Assembly: GCA_004298015.1 (NCBI GenBank)
Contig: SCSE01000085.1
Span: 1 to 64,000, forward strand
Length of the DNA: 64,000 nucleotides
Origin: Rhodanobacter sp.
GTDB taxonomy: Bacteria; Pseudomonadota; Gammaproteobacteria; Xanthomonadales; Rhodanobacteraceae
Reading direction: 5' to 3'
Shown: one piece after another, positions 42,381 to 50,372 of the stretch
Layout: the number at the start of each line of letters is the position of its first letter
Position numbering within the stretch: the first letter of the stretch is position 1
The notes under the pieces: model-generated
What the model was told of the DNA's origin: nothing
Seen by the model: only the letters and a program-made list of their open reading frames with translations
Databases searched by the model: none
Program-made: the position numbers and the translations under genes

Positions 42381-43292
42381 ATGACACACATCGTCGTGGT
42401 GGGCAGCATCAACATGGACCTGGTGACCCTCGCCGCCCGCTTTCCGGCACCAGGCGAAACCCTGCTGGGTGAACGCTTCCTCACCGTACCTGGCGGCAAG
42501 GGAGCCAACCAGGCCATTGCCGCAGCGCGGCTTGGCGCCGAGGTGGCGCTGGTCGGCGCGGTAGGCGATGACACCTTCGGCCGGCAACTGCGGCAGGGCC
42601 TGCATGAGGCAGGGATCGAGCTGAGCCACACCAGGCAGCTCGCCAAAGGTCACACCGGCAGCGCCTCGATCACCGTCGCCGGTGGCGAAAACCAGATCCT
42701 CGTGGTGCCGGGCGCCAACGCGCAGGTGACACCGGCCCAGGTCGCCAGGGCACGTTCACTGATCGAGCGTGCCGATGTCGTGCTGGTGCAGATGGAAATC
42801 CCGCTCGACACCGTGGAGGCCACGGTACGCCTGGGCCACCGGCTGGGTGTGCCGGTGATCCTCAATCCCGCGCCAGCGCAGCGGCTGCCGCCCGCATGGT
42901 TGCAACTGGCAAGCTACGTCACGCCCAACCAGCACGAGCTGGCGATCCTGCTCGATGCCGACCCGCAGGAAGACTTTCGTGCCCTGATGCAACGCGTGCC
43001 GTGCCCGGTCGTGCTGACCCGCGGCCGCGAAGGCGCCTGGTATCGCCGACACGGCGAGCCGGTCCACCAACCGGGCTACGCCGTCGACGTGGTCGACAGC
43101 ACCGGCGCCGGCGACACCTTCAATGCCGCCCTGGCGGTGTTTCTCGCCGAAGGCCTGCCCCAGGCCGTACGCAAGGCCTGTGCCGCCGCCGCCCTGTCCG
43201 TCGGCAAGCTGGGTGCCCAAGGCGGCATGCCGCAGCGCGCCGAACTTGAGGCGTGGCTGGCATCACACGATAGCGAAGCCGGTGGTCGGTAA
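42381..43292 (+). CDS. rbsK: Ribokinase (PfkB family)
   Basis: ATP-dependent phosphorylation of ribose to ribose-5-phosphate. 303 residues starting MTHIVVVGSINMDLVTLAARFPAPGETLLGERFLTVPGGKGANQAIAAARLGAEVALVGAVGDDTFG, with the PfkB GGKGANQA motif. The second signature DVVDSTGAGDTFNAALAVFL supplies the anion hole and catalytic Asp. Ribosome site GGAG precedes the ATG at 42381 by six bases. No ribose transporter or RbsR is adjacent, so specificity for ribose rather than another pentose or nucleoside is inferred from family text. Confidence 0.92.
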   Translation: MTHIVVVGSINMDLVTLAARFPAPGETLLGERFLTVPGGKGANQAIAAARLGAEVALVGAVGDDTFGRQLRQGLHEAGIELSHTRQLAKGHTGSASITVAGGENQILVVPGANAQVTPAQVARARSLIERADVVLVQMEIPLDTVEATVRLGHRLGVPVILNPAPAQRLPPAWLQLASYVTPNQHELAILLDADPQEDFRALMQRVPCPVVLTRGREGAWYRRHGEPVHQPGYAVDVVDSTGAGDTFNAALAVFLAEGLPQAVRKACAAAALSVGKLGAQGGMPQRAELEAWLASHDSEAGGR

Positions 43293-43314
43293 GAACGTCG
43301 AGTGGCCTGTTGAT

Positions 43315-43332
43315 AGGCCTTTTGCAAGGCCT
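43315..43332 (+). terminator. Hairpin downstream of rbsK at the cassette edge
   Basis: AGGCCTT (43315-43321) pairs perfectly with AAGGCCT (43326-43332) around TTGC. No T-run follows, so termination is uncertain; it marks the left margin of the low-GC cassette. Confidence 0.35.
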
Positions 43333-43389
43333 CTCCGGAGATTCCGGGAGGTATACGTTTTGAAAGTGCGAACTTAGCGATTGCGGCAC

Positions 43390-43428
43390 TGTCAACCCAT
43401 GTGTAAAGTGTCAACCTGTATGTCAACC
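43390..43428 (+). repeat. Three direct repeats TGTCAACC upstream of the cassette
   Basis: TGTCAACC occurs at 43390-43397, 43409-43416 and 43421-43428; the last two form a near-tandem 12-bp repeat. They lie 22-60 nt before the first cassette gene and are probable binding sites for a regulator, perhaps the cassette's own HTH protein. Confidence 0.5.
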
Positions 43429-43449
43429 TGGGAGAGTGTCTTGGGACGG

Positions 43450-44247
43450 ATGAAGAATGCGCCCGTTTACTTCGCGCTGGCACAGGTGAGGTTCAATAAC
43501 CTGTGGGCGTTGGATACCTATGCTCCTGGAATCCAAGAGAGTTTTCGAAAGGTCGGATTCCCCGATGCTCAGAAAGGAGTGGTTTCGACCTTCAATTTAA
43601 GTCCGGCAAACATGCCTTCAGCTGGTGGAGAGTTGGTACCTCAGCAAATTCCCGTGGTGCAAGCAACGCAGCATCGGTTTGCCAACATGGAGAAGTCTGA
43701 AGGCTTCTACCTAGACCAGAGCTCGATGTCCTTCCAGACAACTTACTATGAGGACTTCGAGAAGTTTTCTAAGACTTTTTTGAAGGGGCTTCAGATAGTT
43801 AGCGAGGCCGTGGGAGGCCTTAGTTACATTGAGAGAATAGGTATGCGGTACCTTGATGCCATCTTTCCAAAGGAAGGTGAGTCGCTTATCGACTACCTAG
43901 AGGCCTCGCTGCTTGGATTGAGCGATCGCCTGGAAGGGGTGACTCAGTATTCGTTCTCTGAGACGTACACCAAGACGGAGACTGCAAACCTGCTCTCCCG
44001 ATCTATAGTGGAACACGGTCCCGTGGGTCTTCCGCCAGATTTGCAACCCATGTTCCTCACTTTGCAGGATCGTTTCAGCCAGTTGCCTGCTGCTAAGCAT
44101 GCAACCATCGACACGGATGCTTCGGTTGAACGGCGACAATCATTTGATCTGGCAGTAGTGTCTAAGACCCTAGATGCGATCCATACAGAGGCAAGCAACT
44201 CATTCAAGGCATCTGTCACAGACTTTGCTAGAAAGACTTGGGGGTGA
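43450..44247 (+). CDS. TIGR04255-like sporadically distributed protein (cassette gene 1)
   Basis: Protein of 265 residues starting MKNAPVYFALAQVRFNNLWALDTYAPGIQESFRKVGFPDAQKG. The opening APVYFALAQVRFNN and the later TTYYEDFEKFSKTFLKGLQIVSEAVGGLSYIERIGMRYLDAIFP fit the TIGR04255 pattern (beta strand, then Y-x-x-F helix, then ERIGLRY). The family is known for patchy distribution and has no assigned function. Codon use and GC (29 G+C in the 60 bases from 43561, against 40 in the 60 from 53401) differ from neighbours, indicating transfer. It is followed 2 nt later by an HTH gene. A longer N-terminus from a TTG at 43381 would run through the direct repeats and is disfavoured. Confidence 0.8.
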   Translation: MKNAPVYFALAQVRFNNLWALDTYAPGIQESFRKVGFPDAQKGVVSTFNLSPANMPSAGGELVPQQIPVVQATQHRFANMEKSEGFYLDQSSMSFQTTYYEDFEKFSKTFLKGLQIVSEAVGGLSYIERIGMRYLDAIFPKEGESLIDYLEASLLGLSDRLEGVTQYSFSETYTKTETANLLSRSIVEHGPVGLPPDLQPMFLTLQDRFSQLPAAKHATIDTDASVERRQSFDLAVVSKTLDAIHTEASNSFKASVTDFARKTWG

Positions 44248-44249
44248 TC

Positions 44250-44876
44250 ATGATGAACTCGTCAGCTTGTCAAATGACAGCATGGAAGCGCGCAGCCTTG
44301 ACGACGGTTGTAGTTCCGAGTCTCGCTATGGCCTTTCAAGTTGGTACTGGGGGTCAGCTCACGGAAAATTATTATAAAAACCGCGGATCGAAGGGCTACA
44401 CCTATGCTTCCTATCAGGCCTTTGAGGATATCGGGGGAGCTCTCTTGCTTCCTCCTCCCACGGCTGCTGACTATCTTTTGCATCTTCGTGACCATGCGAA
44501 GATTTCGGTAACACATCTCGCCTCTTTGCTAGGCGTATCGCGCCAGATCCTCTACGACTGGCAAAAGGGATCACAGCCGACCGCACTGAACCTGTCGAAG
44601 TTGGAGCGTCTGAGCGAGCTCGTCGATCATATGGATGCGGCAGGGCTGACTCTGTCTCAACAGAATTTCAGCCGAAAGCTTCCGGGTGGCTTGACAATTC
44701 TTGAGCTAGTGCGTGATGGCGCCGCACCCGAGGTTGCTATCCAGATATTTTCAGCGCTGCGGGCCAAAGAAGCGGCTCAACGTGCTTTGGTGAAAGATCG
44801 CTTAGCGCAAAGACAAAGTCGCGCCGCTCACTTGTACGATGACGCGGGATCGCCCTACCTTGACGAACCCAGCTGA
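44250..44876 (+). CDS. HTH DNA-binding protein (cassette gene 2)
   Basis: A 208-residue protein with a central Xre/Cro-like HTH at about residues 75-105 (LRDHAKISVTHLASLLGVSRQILYDWQKGSQPTALNLSKLERLSELVDHM). The N-terminal 60 residues (LAMAFQVGTGGQLTENYYKNRGSKGYTYASYQAFED) are unrecognised. The C-terminus is helical and charged (IFSALRAKEAAQRALVKDRLAQRQSRAAHLYDD). The start at 44250 follows GGGGGTG and overlaps the preceding stop region, implying coupling. It probably regulates the cassette through the TGTCAACC repeats. Low GC like its neighbours. It could also be an antitoxin-like component; this cannot be decided from sequence alone. Confidence 0.8.
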   Translation: MMNSSACQMTAWKRAALTTVVVPSLAMAFQVGTGGQLTENYYKNRGSKGYTYASYQAFEDIGGALLLPPPTAADYLLHLRDHAKISVTHLASLLGVSRQILYDWQKGSQPTALNLSKLERLSELVDHMDAAGLTLSQQNFSRKLPGGLTILELVRDGAAPEVAIQIFSALRAKEAAQRALVKDRLAQRQSRAAHLYDDAGSPYLDEPS

Positions 44877-44889
44877 GTGAAGCGGACGG

Positions 44890-45738
44890 ATGAGCGAATG
44901 GAGTCGTAACACAACTTGGCGACAAGGTATGCTCCTCTCGAAAGAGAGCATGGGTGTCTTGTTCCCGGCTGCAGTAGCTGACGGATTTGAGGTCGCCGTC
45001 GTTGTGTCACACGATTGCGACCTCGCTCAAGGCGCTGCTGAGGAGCCGTTCGTCGAAGTCATCCTAGCTCGGTGCCTAGACATAGCTGATGGGGACGGCA
45101 ATTATTCCTACGCGAAGAATCCACGTGTTCTCCATGTTCCAATGAAGCAGGAAGCTCCGCCGTTTGTTCTTGAGCTGTTGGCTGGGAATAAGCTTAAGGT
45201 TCCAAAGGAGGGCGACGATGGATTGGCGCATCACGAGCCAGACCGATTTCGGTTGAGTGCGGCTCAGGTCAATACATTGCAGCACTGGTTGGCTGCACGA
45301 TATAGGCGCGCGGCTTTTCCTGATGAATTTGATCGTCGCCTCAATAGCGAAACGAAGCTAAGGGATGATCTTGCGAGGATCCTCAAGCCTCTTGGCAACG
45401 AGATCGTGAGCATTTTTTTCGACGTCGACGAAGGTAAGGAAGTTACTCACAGTGGAGCGGATGAGCCGTACGCTCTCGGCATATATCTTTTGTATCGGAC
45501 AGATACTGATCCGGGAGCATCCGAAGCAGCTGCGGTAGCCGCCGCTAAAAAAATCGTCGCGAAATTTGAGGAAAAGTGCCGCGATGATTCTGGGCACTGG
45601 CGATGGATTGAGCTTGCTTACTGCGATCCGATAGCAGACTCAGCTTTGACCTACGCCCAGTCCAATTCCTTTAAGAAATGGCATGCTGATCATATGAGTC
45701 TGCGCGCACAGCCGCAGCAACCGACACTGCGGTCTTGA
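44890..45738 (+). CDS. Uncharacterised SHDCD-motif protein (cassette gene 3)
   Basis: Protein of 282 residues not assigned to a named family. The N-terminal half has FEVAVVVSHDCDLAQGAAEEPFVEVILARCLDIADG, with a clustered Ser-His-Asp-Cys-Asp motif (about residues 40-44) that could be a metal or catalytic site. The C-terminal half has a DELYALGIYLLY-like strand (GADEPYALGIYLLYRTDTDPGASEAAAVAAAKKIVAKFEEKCRDD) and an aromatic end HWRWIELAYCDPIADSALTYAQSNSFKKWHADHMS. It follows the HTH gene by 13 nt and shares its low GC. I infer it is the effector of the cassette, but there is no direct evidence. Confidence 0.75.
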   Translation: MSEWSRNTTWRQGMLLSKESMGVLFPAAVADGFEVAVVVSHDCDLAQGAAEEPFVEVILARCLDIADGDGNYSYAKNPRVLHVPMKQEAPPFVLELLAGNKLKVPKEGDDGLAHHEPDRFRLSAAQVNTLQHWLAARYRRAAFPDEFDRRLNSETKLRDDLARILKPLGNEIVSIFFDVDEGKEVTHSGADEPYALGIYLLYRTDTDPGASEAAAVAAAKKIVAKFEEKCRDDSGHWRWIELAYCDPIADSALTYAQSNSFKKWHADHMSLRAQPQQPTLRS

Positions 45739-45821
45739 GCGAATTAGGCCCCACGTCTGCCCACAGGTCTACGGCGTTTTATAATTTCCGTTGACGCCCA
45801 TCGCGCTCGGTAGACAACACT

Positions 45822-47168
45822 CTACTTTCCGATGCAGAAGCTCGAAAAAATTGCACCCAACAAATCATCGCTGCTGTACTGGCCGGTGATTTCACCGAGG
45901 GTGTGCTGGGCCTGACGCAGCTCTTCGGCGGCCAGCTCGCCGGCGTGGCGGGCGTGCAGGGCGCAGGCAGCCGCGTCGAGTTGTGCGGCGACCTGCTCCA
46001 GCGCCAGCAGATGGCGGCGGCGGGCGCTGAAGGCACCCTCGCCGCTGCCGGCACCGGCCAGCTGCTTGAGCTGGTGGCGCAGCTGATCGAGGCCGGCACC
46101 GGTTTTCACCGAGGCCCAGAGCCAGCGGCAACCCTCACGCTGTTCGCTGTGCGCCGCGGTGCCGCCGAGATCGATCTTGTTGATCAGCACCAGGCGTTCG
46201 ACACCGGCCGGCAGCGTGGCGAACCAGGCCAGGTCGGCGCCAGCGTGCGTGGCGTCGGTCACCAGCAAGGCGACATCGGCGCGTTGCAGTTCGCCGTGGG
46301 CACGACGTACGCCCTCGCGCTCGACTTCGTCGTCGGTTTCGCGCAGGCCGGCGGTGTCGGCCAGCTCCAGTGCAATACCATCGAGACTGAGCGACTCACG
46401 CAACACGTCGCGGGTGGTCCCCGCCGCCGCGTTGACGATGGCGCGGTCGCTGCCGGCCAGCGCATTGAGCAAGCTGGACTTGCCCGCATTAGGCCGACCG
46501 ATGATCGCCACGCGCAGGCCATCGTTGAGGCGCAACCCGCGTCGGGCCTCGCGCTGCAGCTCGGCCAGTTCGGCGCGTACCGCGGCAAGCTGGTTCGCGA
46601 TCGCCGGATCGGCAAGGAAGTCGATTTCCTCTTCGGGAAAGTCGATTGCCGCCTCGATATGCACGCGCAGAGCGATCAAACGCTGCAGCAGCGCCTCGAC
46701 CCGGCGTGAAAACACCCCCTCCATCGACTGCAGCGCAGCCCGTGCAGCGGCTTGCGAACGCGCCGCGATCAGGTCGGCGACGGCTTCGGCCTGCGCCAGA
46801 TCGAGCTTGCCGTTGAGAAACGCACGCTCGGTGAACTCGCCGGCTCGGGCCAGTCGTGCATCGAGCTGACAGATGCGCCGCAGCAGCGCATCCAGCAGCA
46901 CGCTGCTGCCGTGGCCCTGCAGCTCCAGCACATGCTCACCGGTATATGAAGCCGGTGCCGGGAAGTACAGCAGCAAGCCGCGGTCGATCAAGTGGCCGTC
47001 GGCATCGCGGAAGGCCGCCAGATGAGCGTGTCGCGGCTGCGGGATCCGTCCCAGCAGGCGCTGTGCGATCGCCGGTACCGCCGGTCCGGACACCCGCACC
47101 ACGCCGACCCCGGCAGCGCCCGGTGCACTGGCGATGGCAGCGATGGTGTCGACGACGGCTTCGGACAT
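45822..47168 (-). CDS. mnmE: tRNA modification GTPase MnmE
   Basis: With MnmG it installs the 5-carboxymethylaminomethyl group on U34 of certain tRNAs. 448 residues: N-terminal tetrahydrofolate-binding domain (VVDTIAAIASAPGAAGVGVVRVSGPAVPAIAQRLLG), helical domain, G domain with G1 GRPNAGKSSLLNAL, G3 DTAGLRETDDEVEREGVRR and G4 NKID, and the C-terminal farnesyl-like CIGK motif. The start at 47168 (MSEAVVDT) is chosen by homology; no good ribosome site is visible. It is convergent with the transferred cassette, which lies between it and rbsK. Confidence 0.97.
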   Translation of the reverse strand: MSEAVVDTIAAIASAPGAAGVGVVRVSGPAVPAIAQRLLGRIPQPRHAHLAAFRDADGHLIDRGLLLYFPAPASYTGEHVLELQGHGSSVLLDALLRRICQLDARLARAGEFTERAFLNGKLDLAQAEAVADLIAARSQAAARAALQSMEGVFSRRVEALLQRLIALRVHIEAAIDFPEEEIDFLADPAIANQLAAVRAELAELQREARRGLRLNDGLRVAIIGRPNAGKSSLLNALAGSDRAIVNAAAGTTRDVLRESLSLDGIALELADTAGLRETDDEVEREGVRRAHGELQRADVALLVTDATHAGADLAWFATLPAGVERLVLINKIDLGGTAAHSEQREGCRWLWASVKTGAGLDQLRHQLKQLAGAGSGEGAFSARRRHLLALEQVAAQLDAAACALHARHAGELAAEELRQAQHTLGEITGQYSSDDLLGAIFSSFCIGK

Positions 47169-47266: not shown

Positions 47267-49084
47267 TCAGGCGGTCGGGGGTGGATCACCGCGGTCGAGA
47301 TAGTCCGACAGGTTGGCGCTTTCCACCAGATCCTCCCAGGTGACTACGCCGAGCACGCTGTCGACACCGTCCAGCTTGCCATCCCGGGTCATCACCGCGT
47401 TGCGGCAGCGCTCGCTGCGCATCAATGCGATCAGGTCGAAAACCTGAATCGAGGCCTCGACCTCGACCACATGGGTATCGGCCAAATCGCGCAGCGGCGT
47501 GTCCACTGCCATGCCGGGTCGGGCCGCCCGTACCGCACGCGCCGACACCACACCGATCAGCGTGTCCTGGTCCAGCAAGACCACGCGCGGCGTGCGATGC
47601 TGCCGGCGGCGCTGCGCCAGCACCGTACCCAGGTTGGCATTGGCATCCAGGCACATGAACGGTGCACCGACGAATTCCATGGCGCAGCGCGCCAGATACA
47701 ACTGGCTCTGGATCGCGACCGGGACGTGCTGACCGCGGCGACTCAGCTTCAGTGTGTAAATGGTATCCGCCAGCAACAGGCGGCGCATCGAATAGGCCAC
47801 CGAGACGGCAATGATCAACGGGATGATGACGTGGTAGTCACGGGTCATCTCGAAGGTCATCACCACCGCGGTCACCGCTGCGCCGGTACTGGCCCCCACC
47901 ATGCAGGCCATGCCGATCACCGCCGCATCGACCGGGCTGATGTTTACCCCGGGAAACAGCACCTGCACCCCGGCAGCGAATGCCGCGCCAAGCGTGGCAC
48001 CGATGAACAGGGCTGGCGAAAAAATACCGCCAGAGGCACCCGAGCCCAGGGTCAGCGAGGTCGCCAGCAATTTCAACAGTGCCAGCAACAGCAGCACACC
48101 GCCTGCTTTCAGGCCACCGTTGAGTACATCCTGGATCGCCGCATAACCGACCCCTTCGACGTAGTAGTGACCTTCGCGCTGCAGCAGCACATACATGATG
48201 ACCCCGACCAGGGCCATGCCGATCATGTGCCGCACGTAGTCGTTGCCCGGCACCTTCTTGAACAGGTCCTCGAACCAGTAGATCGAACGGGTGTACAGCA
48301 TCGCTGCCAAACCGGTCAGCAAGCCCAGCACGACATAGGCGACCAGTGCCAGTCCCGGACCCAGCGCATGATGATCAAGGGTAAGCTTCGGCACCACGAA
48401 AGACGGATGGTCGCCGAAGAACATGCGTCCAACCAGACTGGCGGTGCCGGTGGCGATCATCACCGGAATCAGGGTGCGGGCGCTGATTTCCACCAGCAGG
48501 ATTTCGGCGGCGAACAGGACCCCGCCCAACGGTGTGTTGAAGGTCGCGGCAATCCCGGCACCACCGCCACAGGCGATCAGGGTCAGCCGCTGCCATTCAG
48601 GGATCTTCATCCACTGCGCGAGGATCGAACCGAAAGTCGCACCGATCTGGATAATCGGTCCCTCACGCCCGACCGCACCGCCGGAACCGATGGAAATGGA
48701 AGAGGCCAATGCCTTGATCAGCGCCACCGGCGCACGAATCAGGCCGCGCTTGAAGTTCACCGCATCGATAACCTCAGGCACGCCATGCCCCTTGGCTTCC
48801 GGCGCGAACGTGTTCACCAGAAAAACCACCAGCAACGCGCCGGCCACGGGTACCGCGATGATCGCGGCGCCCCACGGACTGGCGGCGGTATGCACCAGAG
48901 TGTCGTACTCCAGACTCAACTGGCCGAAGAAGAACAGGTTGTGAAACAACGCGATCAGCTTGCGAAAGGCCACCGCACCAAAACCCGCCACCAGACCTAC
49001 CGCCACCGCCATGGCCGCGGTGCCGATTTCGGCACGGGCGTTGCGCAACAACTGGCGGGGGTCCGTGATGATACCGATGCGCAC
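47267..49084 (-). CDS. ClC family chloride channel/antiporter with CBS domains
   Basis: Membrane anion transporter of 605 residues. The selectivity segments are AKGHGVPEVIDA (GxGxP, with His where E. coli ClC has Ser), GSGGAVGREGPIIQIGA with gating Glu141, and GSGASGGIFSPALFIGATLGAAF. A C-terminal pair of CBS motifs (about residues 455-600) ends in VLGVVTWEDLVESANLSDYLDRGD. The length with CBS regulation distinguishes it from the short enteric ClcA. Possible roles are acid resistance or halide transport. It begins 98 nt upstream of mnmE on the same strand; no shared function is evident. Confidence 0.92.
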   Translation of the reverse strand: MRIGIITDPRQLLRNARAEIGTAAMAVAVGLVAGFGAVAFRKLIALFHNLFFFGQLSLEYDTLVHTAASPWGAAIIAVPVAGALLVVFLVNTFAPEAKGHGVPEVIDAVNFKRGLIRAPVALIKALASSISIGSGGAVGREGPIIQIGATFGSILAQWMKIPEWQRLTLIACGGGAGIAATFNTPLGGVLFAAEILLVEISARTLIPVMIATGTASLVGRMFFGDHPSFVVPKLTLDHHALGPGLALVAYVVLGLLTGLAAMLYTRSIYWFEDLFKKVPGNDYVRHMIGMALVGVIMYVLLQREGHYYVEGVGYAAIQDVLNGGLKAGGVLLLLALLKLLATSLTLGSGASGGIFSPALFIGATLGAAFAAGVQVLFPGVNISPVDAAVIGMACMVGASTGAAVTAVVMTFEMTRDYHVIIPLIIAVSVAYSMRRLLLADTIYTLKLSRRGQHVPVAIQSQLYLARCAMEFVGAPFMCLDANANLGTVLAQRRRQHRTPRVVLLDQDTLIGVVSARAVRAARPGMAVDTPLRDLADTHVVEVEASIQVFDLIALMRSERCRNAVMTRDGKLDGVDSVLGVVTWEDLVESANLSDYLDRGDPPPTA

Positions 49085-49979: not shown

Positions 49980-50372
49980 TCAACCACGTTGCGCATCCAG
50001 ATACTGCCGCACCACGTAAAGGTCGGCGACGTTGCCGGAGAGCATCCGTTGCAACGCCGAATGCCCGCCAAACAACGACGCCCGATTTGGCTTGTGCAAC
50101 CACGCATCGGCCTGAGCCGGGTCGGGAAACAGGATCTGCAGCGCCTGCCAGATACCGAGCAGATAGCTGATCCGCTCGATGGTATCGCGGCCGGGGGAAC
50201 CTGCTTGCTGGCGTTTCCACTTGTAGAAGGTCGATTCCGGCGGGTCACCGAGCAGCTTGCGTTGGTCGGCGATGCACAGCTTCCAGTGCTCGGCCAGGCG
50301 GAAAAAGCTGCGTAGCGCGGGACCACCGAGATCCTCTGAAGGCGACTTTTCGGGACGCGCGTTGGCAAGCAT
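49980..50372 (-). CDS. MbcA/ParS/Xre-type antitoxin
   Basis: Antitoxin of 130 residues. N-terminal HTH-like region (ALRSFFRLAEHWKLCIADQRKLLGDPPESTFYKWKRQQ) and the C-terminal DUF2384 toxin-binding part (DTIERISYLLGIWQALQILFPDPAQADAWLHKPNRASLFGGHSALQRMLSGNVADLYVVRQYLDAQRG). The ribosome site AAGGAG directly abuts the first ATG (50381) but is nine bases from the ATG at 50372, so MLANARPEK is the better start. The gene precedes the RES toxin and is preceded by a perfect palindrome, consistent with autorepression. Confidence 0.88.
   Translation of the reverse strand: MLANARPEKSPSEDLGGPALRSFFRLAEHWKLCIADQRKLLGDPPESTFYKWKRQQAGSPGRDTIERISYLLGIWQALQILFPDPAQADAWLHKPNRASLFGGHSALQRMLSGNVADLYVVRQYLDAQRG

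Follow-up and report, generated by a model that had tools for sequence, protein, structure and literature searches.

What is the role of a small three-gene cassette that separates rbsK from mnmE in Rhodanobacter sp. (GenBank assembly GCA_004298015.1, contig SCSE01000085.1)? The DNA analyzed, positions 1 to 64,000 of the forward strand of this contig, is referred to below as the window, and the genes of the cassette are designated A, B and C. An initial annotation, made from the letters alone, regarded the cassette as a mobile defence or toxin-type module. We consider it somewhat probable that the cassette is a tripartite toxin-antitoxin (TA)-type module, in which C would be the toxin, B the antitoxin and repressor, and A the controller of B. 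Gene A would appear to be the component common to a type of TA module not described so far, and what would be new here is a tripartite TA-type module with a constant partner of a new kind.

43293..45821, no strand assigned: the full cassette, inserted between rbsK and mnmE, delimited by G+C content (GC) and comparison with congeners
43441..44247, + strand: gene A, TIGR04255 family (NCBIfam E 4e-41, predicted structure, homologue alignments)
44250..44876, + strand: gene B, Xre-type helix-turn-helix (HTH) protein with an N-terminal hydrophobic stretch and GTGG motif (profile search, alignments, hydropathy)
44890..45738, + strand: gene C, SHDCD protein of 282 aa (homologue search, alignment, predicted fold)

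Position, composition and insertion site

The cassette fills the space between the stop codon of rbsK, which ends at 43292, and that of mnmE, which begins at 45822 on the complement, with three same-strand open reading frames (ORFs) between the two convergent genes. Gene A ends at 44247, the ATG of gene B follows at 44250 (gap of 2 nt), and gene C starts at 44890 (gap of 13 nt), in agreement with the close packing and the location first described. The low GC of the initial annotation was likewise reproduced, its two samples (29 of 60 and 40 of 60) being exact. GC is 0.524 (52.4%) for 43293-45821 against 0.644 (64.4%) for the remaining window. All of the 564 further stretches of 2529 nt compared there have a GC of at least 0.586 (z-score -5.9 for the cassette). 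At third codon positions, GC is 0.52-0.56 in the cassette genes against 0.78-0.79 for rbsK, mnmE and the gene that follows (47267-49084).

The mnmE end was present in 45 of 45 congeneric genomes searched, and was read in 29 congeners besides the window's own genome, with gene ends extrapolated from alignments. In 15 of these, rbsK either overlaps mnmE or is separated from it by no more than 100 nt; the spacing is 1.1-1.2 kb in three, and the other 11 have no rbsK match within the available stretch beside mnmE. Because its GC is far below that of the window and rbsK and mnmE are adjacent in 15 of the congeners, the cassette is a genuine insertion rather than a chance arrangement. The nearest congener (90% identity in mnmE) has other ORFs in the rbsK-mnmE gap. 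In another congener (L101, genome G038), two DNA methyltransferase-like ORFs, recognized by eye, and others adjoin mnmE; the place beside mnmE thus resembles a site of variable insertions in this genus. Gene C is found in 7 of 197 related genomes, the window's own counted, and the copies of the two other congeners are only 34% identical to that of the window and lie on contigs other than that of mnmE.

Conservation of the trio

Homologues of C number 632 at E <= 0.001. C-bearing loci were gathered from named species (51 from the species collection), relatives, plasmids and one phage record. In 55 of the 60 distinct loci, gene A precedes C in the same orientation, at a distance of 544-776 nt except in one fusion (L018), and a B-type ORF occurs in 59 hits, the window counted. 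The five loci without A comprise two whose upstream DNA is too short to hold it (L042, L048), two with about 1.5 kb (L006, L033) and one with 10 kb (L027) free of A. All ten C-bearing genomes among 321 in the class carry TIGR04255 immediately upstream, one copy being degenerate. The eight plasmid records with C are the eight with A, and A and C occur together at trio spacing on 44 of the 46 viral contigs. No recurring fourth gene was found, with seven non-trio clusters in 3-5 loci at most.

This adjacency in unrelated genomes, plasmids and viral contigs answers the doubt voiced in the initial annotation, that the genes might not be neighbours elsewhere or might have homologues of known function; listed homologues bearing a name are called only "hypothetical protein" or "TIGR04255 family". 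Hosts of the trio include Pseudomonadota, Cyanobacteriota, Acidobacteriota and Thermodesulfobacteriota, as well as Meiothermus, on a plasmid; Duganella lactea (L026) and Pseudoxanthomonas japonensis (L014) are among the species that carry it. A tree of C (47 rows) requires 5 phylum changes against a minimum of 3, a number that contaminated bins may inflate. The description of the cassette as mobile thus stands on its low GC, the empty site in congeners and a patchy cross-phylum occurrence. Searching E. coli genomes with the Klebsiella trio DNA gave no match. A degenerate trio in genome G222 (L158, L189) has several stops in A and C, so decay is one way in which the module disappears.

Gene C

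Residues of about 8-141 of C are predicted to adopt a MazF/CcdB fold, followed by a C-terminal alpha/beta part. Over 92 alignment rows, the invariant residues are C43, D44, E52, R79, W133, R137, Y138, R140 and S270. Neither Pfam (PF02452 included) nor NCBIfam has a family that matches the protein up to E 1, and its match to phrog_34320 (E 2e-12) is to a family with no assigned function; the first description likewise left C unassigned.

The third position behind TIGR04255

A census of 59 TIGR04255 loci was assembled apart from the window, the trio loci G320, G224, G313, G393, G380, G247 and G197:C205, the degenerate G222 and the split fragment G368:C46; six of the 59 are divergent long-CD relatives of the window type (L222, L251, L254, L261, L278, L279). 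Two co-directional ORFs with gaps of at most 40 nt follow TIGR04255 in 46 of 59 loci, as against 10 of 63 controls (genes of 230-330 aa that flank trio loci), a count that permits long overlaps; under a stricter rule that does not, the figures are 39 of 59 and 5 of 63. Automatic ORF selection went wrong for some genes (e.g., L225, L250, L256, L259, L268), and third-gene classes were defined by our own regular expressions and reading.

Third genes were scanned in 50 of 55 cases (all except L225, L256, L272, L277 and one of the two of L232), and second genes in 48 of 59. The 50 third genes include three PIN proteins, one YhaV (E 7e-46) and one PemK (E 1e-18). In L231, the gene preceding YhaV has an N-terminal part with a hydrophobic stretch and matches PrlF, the known antitoxin of YhaV, in the last 45 residues, with scores below the cut-offs (E 0.0058 and 0.0026). 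On a TIGR04255 tree, third-gene classes cluster, with 10 changes against a shuffled mean of 34. A PIN locus is sister to the MazF locus (100/100), and an AYYxA third-gene locus is nested among short-CD loci (91/84); judged from these sequences, the third slot is therefore swapped behind a conserved A. The toxin-type label of the initial annotation is borne out indirectly, through the predicted fold of C and the known TA toxins in this slot of sister loci.

Further classes were observed in the census. A second large one (L226-L277, e.g., L258, L262, L248) has a WDG-type middle gene and a short xAF third gene; the gene pair of L258 matches no Pfam family, and the WDG/xAF pair is a candidate TA pair of new type. 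Loci L236, L270 and L276 have an AYYxA third gene of 117-125 aa after TIGR04255; a "HEPN-like" label, given by eye, was checked for L236 and L270, two of the three, and found no support there in Pfam or NCBIfam. In L221, L223 and L249, the third gene (216-233 aa) has a GIA..HVGI/HIGI motif; their A proteins form one clade (100/88), and the third gene of L223 matches no family. The short-CD motif of L234 is SNSDID, which has no Cys, and this locus was excluded from the short-CD alignment. Among plasmids, the short-class third gene occurs in one unannotated record.

Genes A and B

The open frame of gene A begins at 43381, and homologue starts favour TTG 43441 or ATG 43450. The TIGR04255 identity proposed at the outset is well founded, with 141.4 bits against a cut-off of 30 over positions 1-252 of the 252-position profile, and the AlphaFold model has a pLDDT (predicted local distance difference test) of 92.8. 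The family takes its name from a sporadic distribution and has no assigned function. We found no paper that mentions TIGR04255 (IPR026349) and none joining "sporadically distributed protein" with toxin-antitoxin, in searches with subscription papers, preprints and supplements mostly outside their reach. Gene A matches no Pfam family up to E 1, SecB (PF02556) included. Kinship with SecB was also sought with hhalign, using 33 SecB ORFs motif-picked from 30 loci, and was rejected: the probability of 0.1% equals that of the negative controls and is no signal. SecB was not among the 50 VIA rows listed for gene A, which carries no weight either way.

The HTH of gene B was found as announced, at a score (21 bits) slightly under the HTH_3 cut-off of 23. 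Its hydrophobic stretch reaches a KD17 of at least 1.6 in 30 of the 57 B proteins compared from trio loci (59 less two dropped; 4-5 mis-anchored by the search pattern). Two A-B fusions, P0124 and L018, argue on sequence grounds that A and B may act together. A relationship of B to Xre_MbcA_ParS was also considered; the comparison set (n = 19) was a neighbouring RES-like ORF, recognized by eye, and the comparison was not used.

Shortly before the probable start of gene A lies a short repeat:

43390..43428, + strand: candidate operator, three copies of TGTCAACC (43390, 43409, 43421), with a putative function

The whole window holds four exact copies of TGTCAACC on both strands, against a shuffled mean of 1.7. 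A promoter and terminator scan gave one promoter-like site, inside C, and zero terminators, at or below shuffles.

Comparison with known systems

Among the closest known systems are toxin-antitoxin-chaperone (TAC) modules (HigB-HigA-SecB-like; CmdTAC). In these, a SecB-like chaperone binds an antitoxin extension (PMC5105189), and in CmdTAC the chaperone leaves the complex when the phage capsid protein appears (PMC11618068). TAC and the trio have in common three genes, a constant non-toxin partner, varied toxin and antitoxin families and horizontal spread (PMC4257090, PMC5105189, PMC11618068). The trio, too, is a locus of three genes in which the third partner stays constant, and it is of putative TA nature. 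In contrast to TAC, this partner is a TIGR04255 protein and not a chaperone of the SecB family, and A comes first. The candidate segment of B is N-terminal and hydrophobic, whereas the chaperone-addiction extension (ChAD) of TAC is C-terminal with aromatic and basic stretches. We suggest by analogy that the trio may work like TAC, and do not class it as TAC because A is not SecB-like and the candidate segment is N-terminal.

With type II MazEF/PemIK modules, the cassette shares the fold predicted for residues 8-141 of C, and sister locus L253 has a PemK/MazF toxin in third place; C differs in not being recognized by PF02452, in its invariant Cys-Asp within SHDCD, in its extra C-terminal part and in the presence of a third gene, A. 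Sister locus L231 resembles PrlF-YhaV in combining TIGR04255, a PrlF-like antitoxin tail and a YhaV toxin, and differs in that the weak PrlF match is limited to the C-terminal half of the profile and the N-terminal part carries the hydrophobic stretch.

Proposed mechanism and alternatives

From four computed results, namely the insertion, the conservation of the trio, the fold predicted for C and the swapping of toxins behind A, we infer a mechanism in which C would be toxic through its MazF/CcdB-fold domain and invariant Cys-Asp site. B would neutralize C as its antitoxin and, through the HTH, likely repress its own operon. A would be the constant third partner controlling B, most likely by clasping the N-terminal hydrophobic GTGG segment and thereby keeping B folded or stable. 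Loss of A, or its being drawn away under phage or other stress, would free C.

Several results weigh against this mechanism. No significant sequence kinship links C to MazF (hhalign probability 0.8% against the MazF profile), and the best Foldseek match of C has E 1.6e-3, with none under 0.001. The catalytic residues of MazF are Arg and Thr, and these have no evident counterpart in C in a comparison made without superposed coordinates. The hydrophobic stretch of B is not universal: only 24 of 57 proteins exceed 95% of their own shuffles, the stretch is rare in three of the census classes (long-CD 1 of 6, WDG 1 of 17, NWLEYF 0 of 5), and fusion L018 lacks it, while P0124 keeps it between A and the HTH. 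Pfam and hhalign show no SecB similarity in A, locus L027 lacks A although B and C are present, and 45 of the 50 scanned third genes are without a match to any known toxin family. The flank control also held one TA toxin, HigB; it covered 100 of 247 flanking ORFs, short ones hand-picked, and the matches listed cover 25 of the 100 families, so lone PIN, PemK or YhaV matches are possible.

The same flanks bear on a reading, in our view unlikely, in which the cassette serves defence rather than addiction, with A recognizing a phage product directly and licensing C as effector via B. The matches listed for these 100 ORFs (Pfam, trio loci L008-L049) include two ThsB_TIR and one SLOG cluster-3 besides the HigB, the trio occurs on viral contigs and plasmids, and the CmdC chaperone of CmdTAC detects a capsid protein (PMC11618068). 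Yet PADLOC (2023) has no family for A and C up to E 1 and matches B weakly (best E 0.0077), and the clustering near known defence genes that the initial annotation proposed to look for did not emerge: no recurring defence neighbour was seen, flanking clusters occurring in 3-5 loci at most, with functions not looked up. It is improbable that the stretch of B is a transmembrane helix and the trio a signalling relay with a membrane-anchored regulator; a position near the N-terminus and KD17 values up to about 2.0 would suit a helix, but L018 lacks the stretch, and a membrane span is disfavoured because the stretch of P0124, sitting between A and the HTH, would set these on opposite sides of the membrane. 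We give similarly little credence to A being an enzyme that modifies B or C, for which its nearest folds, including phosphagen and McsB kinases, may be cited. Least probable is that A is harmful and restrained by B and C, or that the genes form an ordinary metabolic or regulatory operon: A is the most constant part and nothing direct speaks for either idea, whereas it is the third gene, not A, that is replaced by YhaV, PemK and PIN, and occurrence is patchy across phyla with no recurring fourth gene.

Elsewhere in the window, 49983-50144 (- strand) encodes an Xre_MbcA_ParS_C domain (E 5e-14), of a family present in 46 of 60 relatives. In gathered loci, a RES-like ORF, recognized by eye, adjoins the Xre_MbcA_ParS gene, probably forming a chromosomal RES-Xre pair.

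Implications for the TIGR04255 family

More tentatively than for the cassette itself, we propose that TIGR04255 proteins may be dedicated non-SecB antitoxin controllers that define a large modular tripartite TA family whose toxins are swapped freely (MazF, YhaV and PIN, possibly also HEPN, besides several still undescribed toxin families), and that gene C of the window may found a Cys-centred MazF-fold toxin family. This points to the QG..CD, WDG-partner, NWLEYF, GIA and AYYxA third genes as candidate toxin families. It would give TIGR04255 a first, testable role, antitoxin control, and, if true, chaperone-like control of TA modules exists outside the SecB family.
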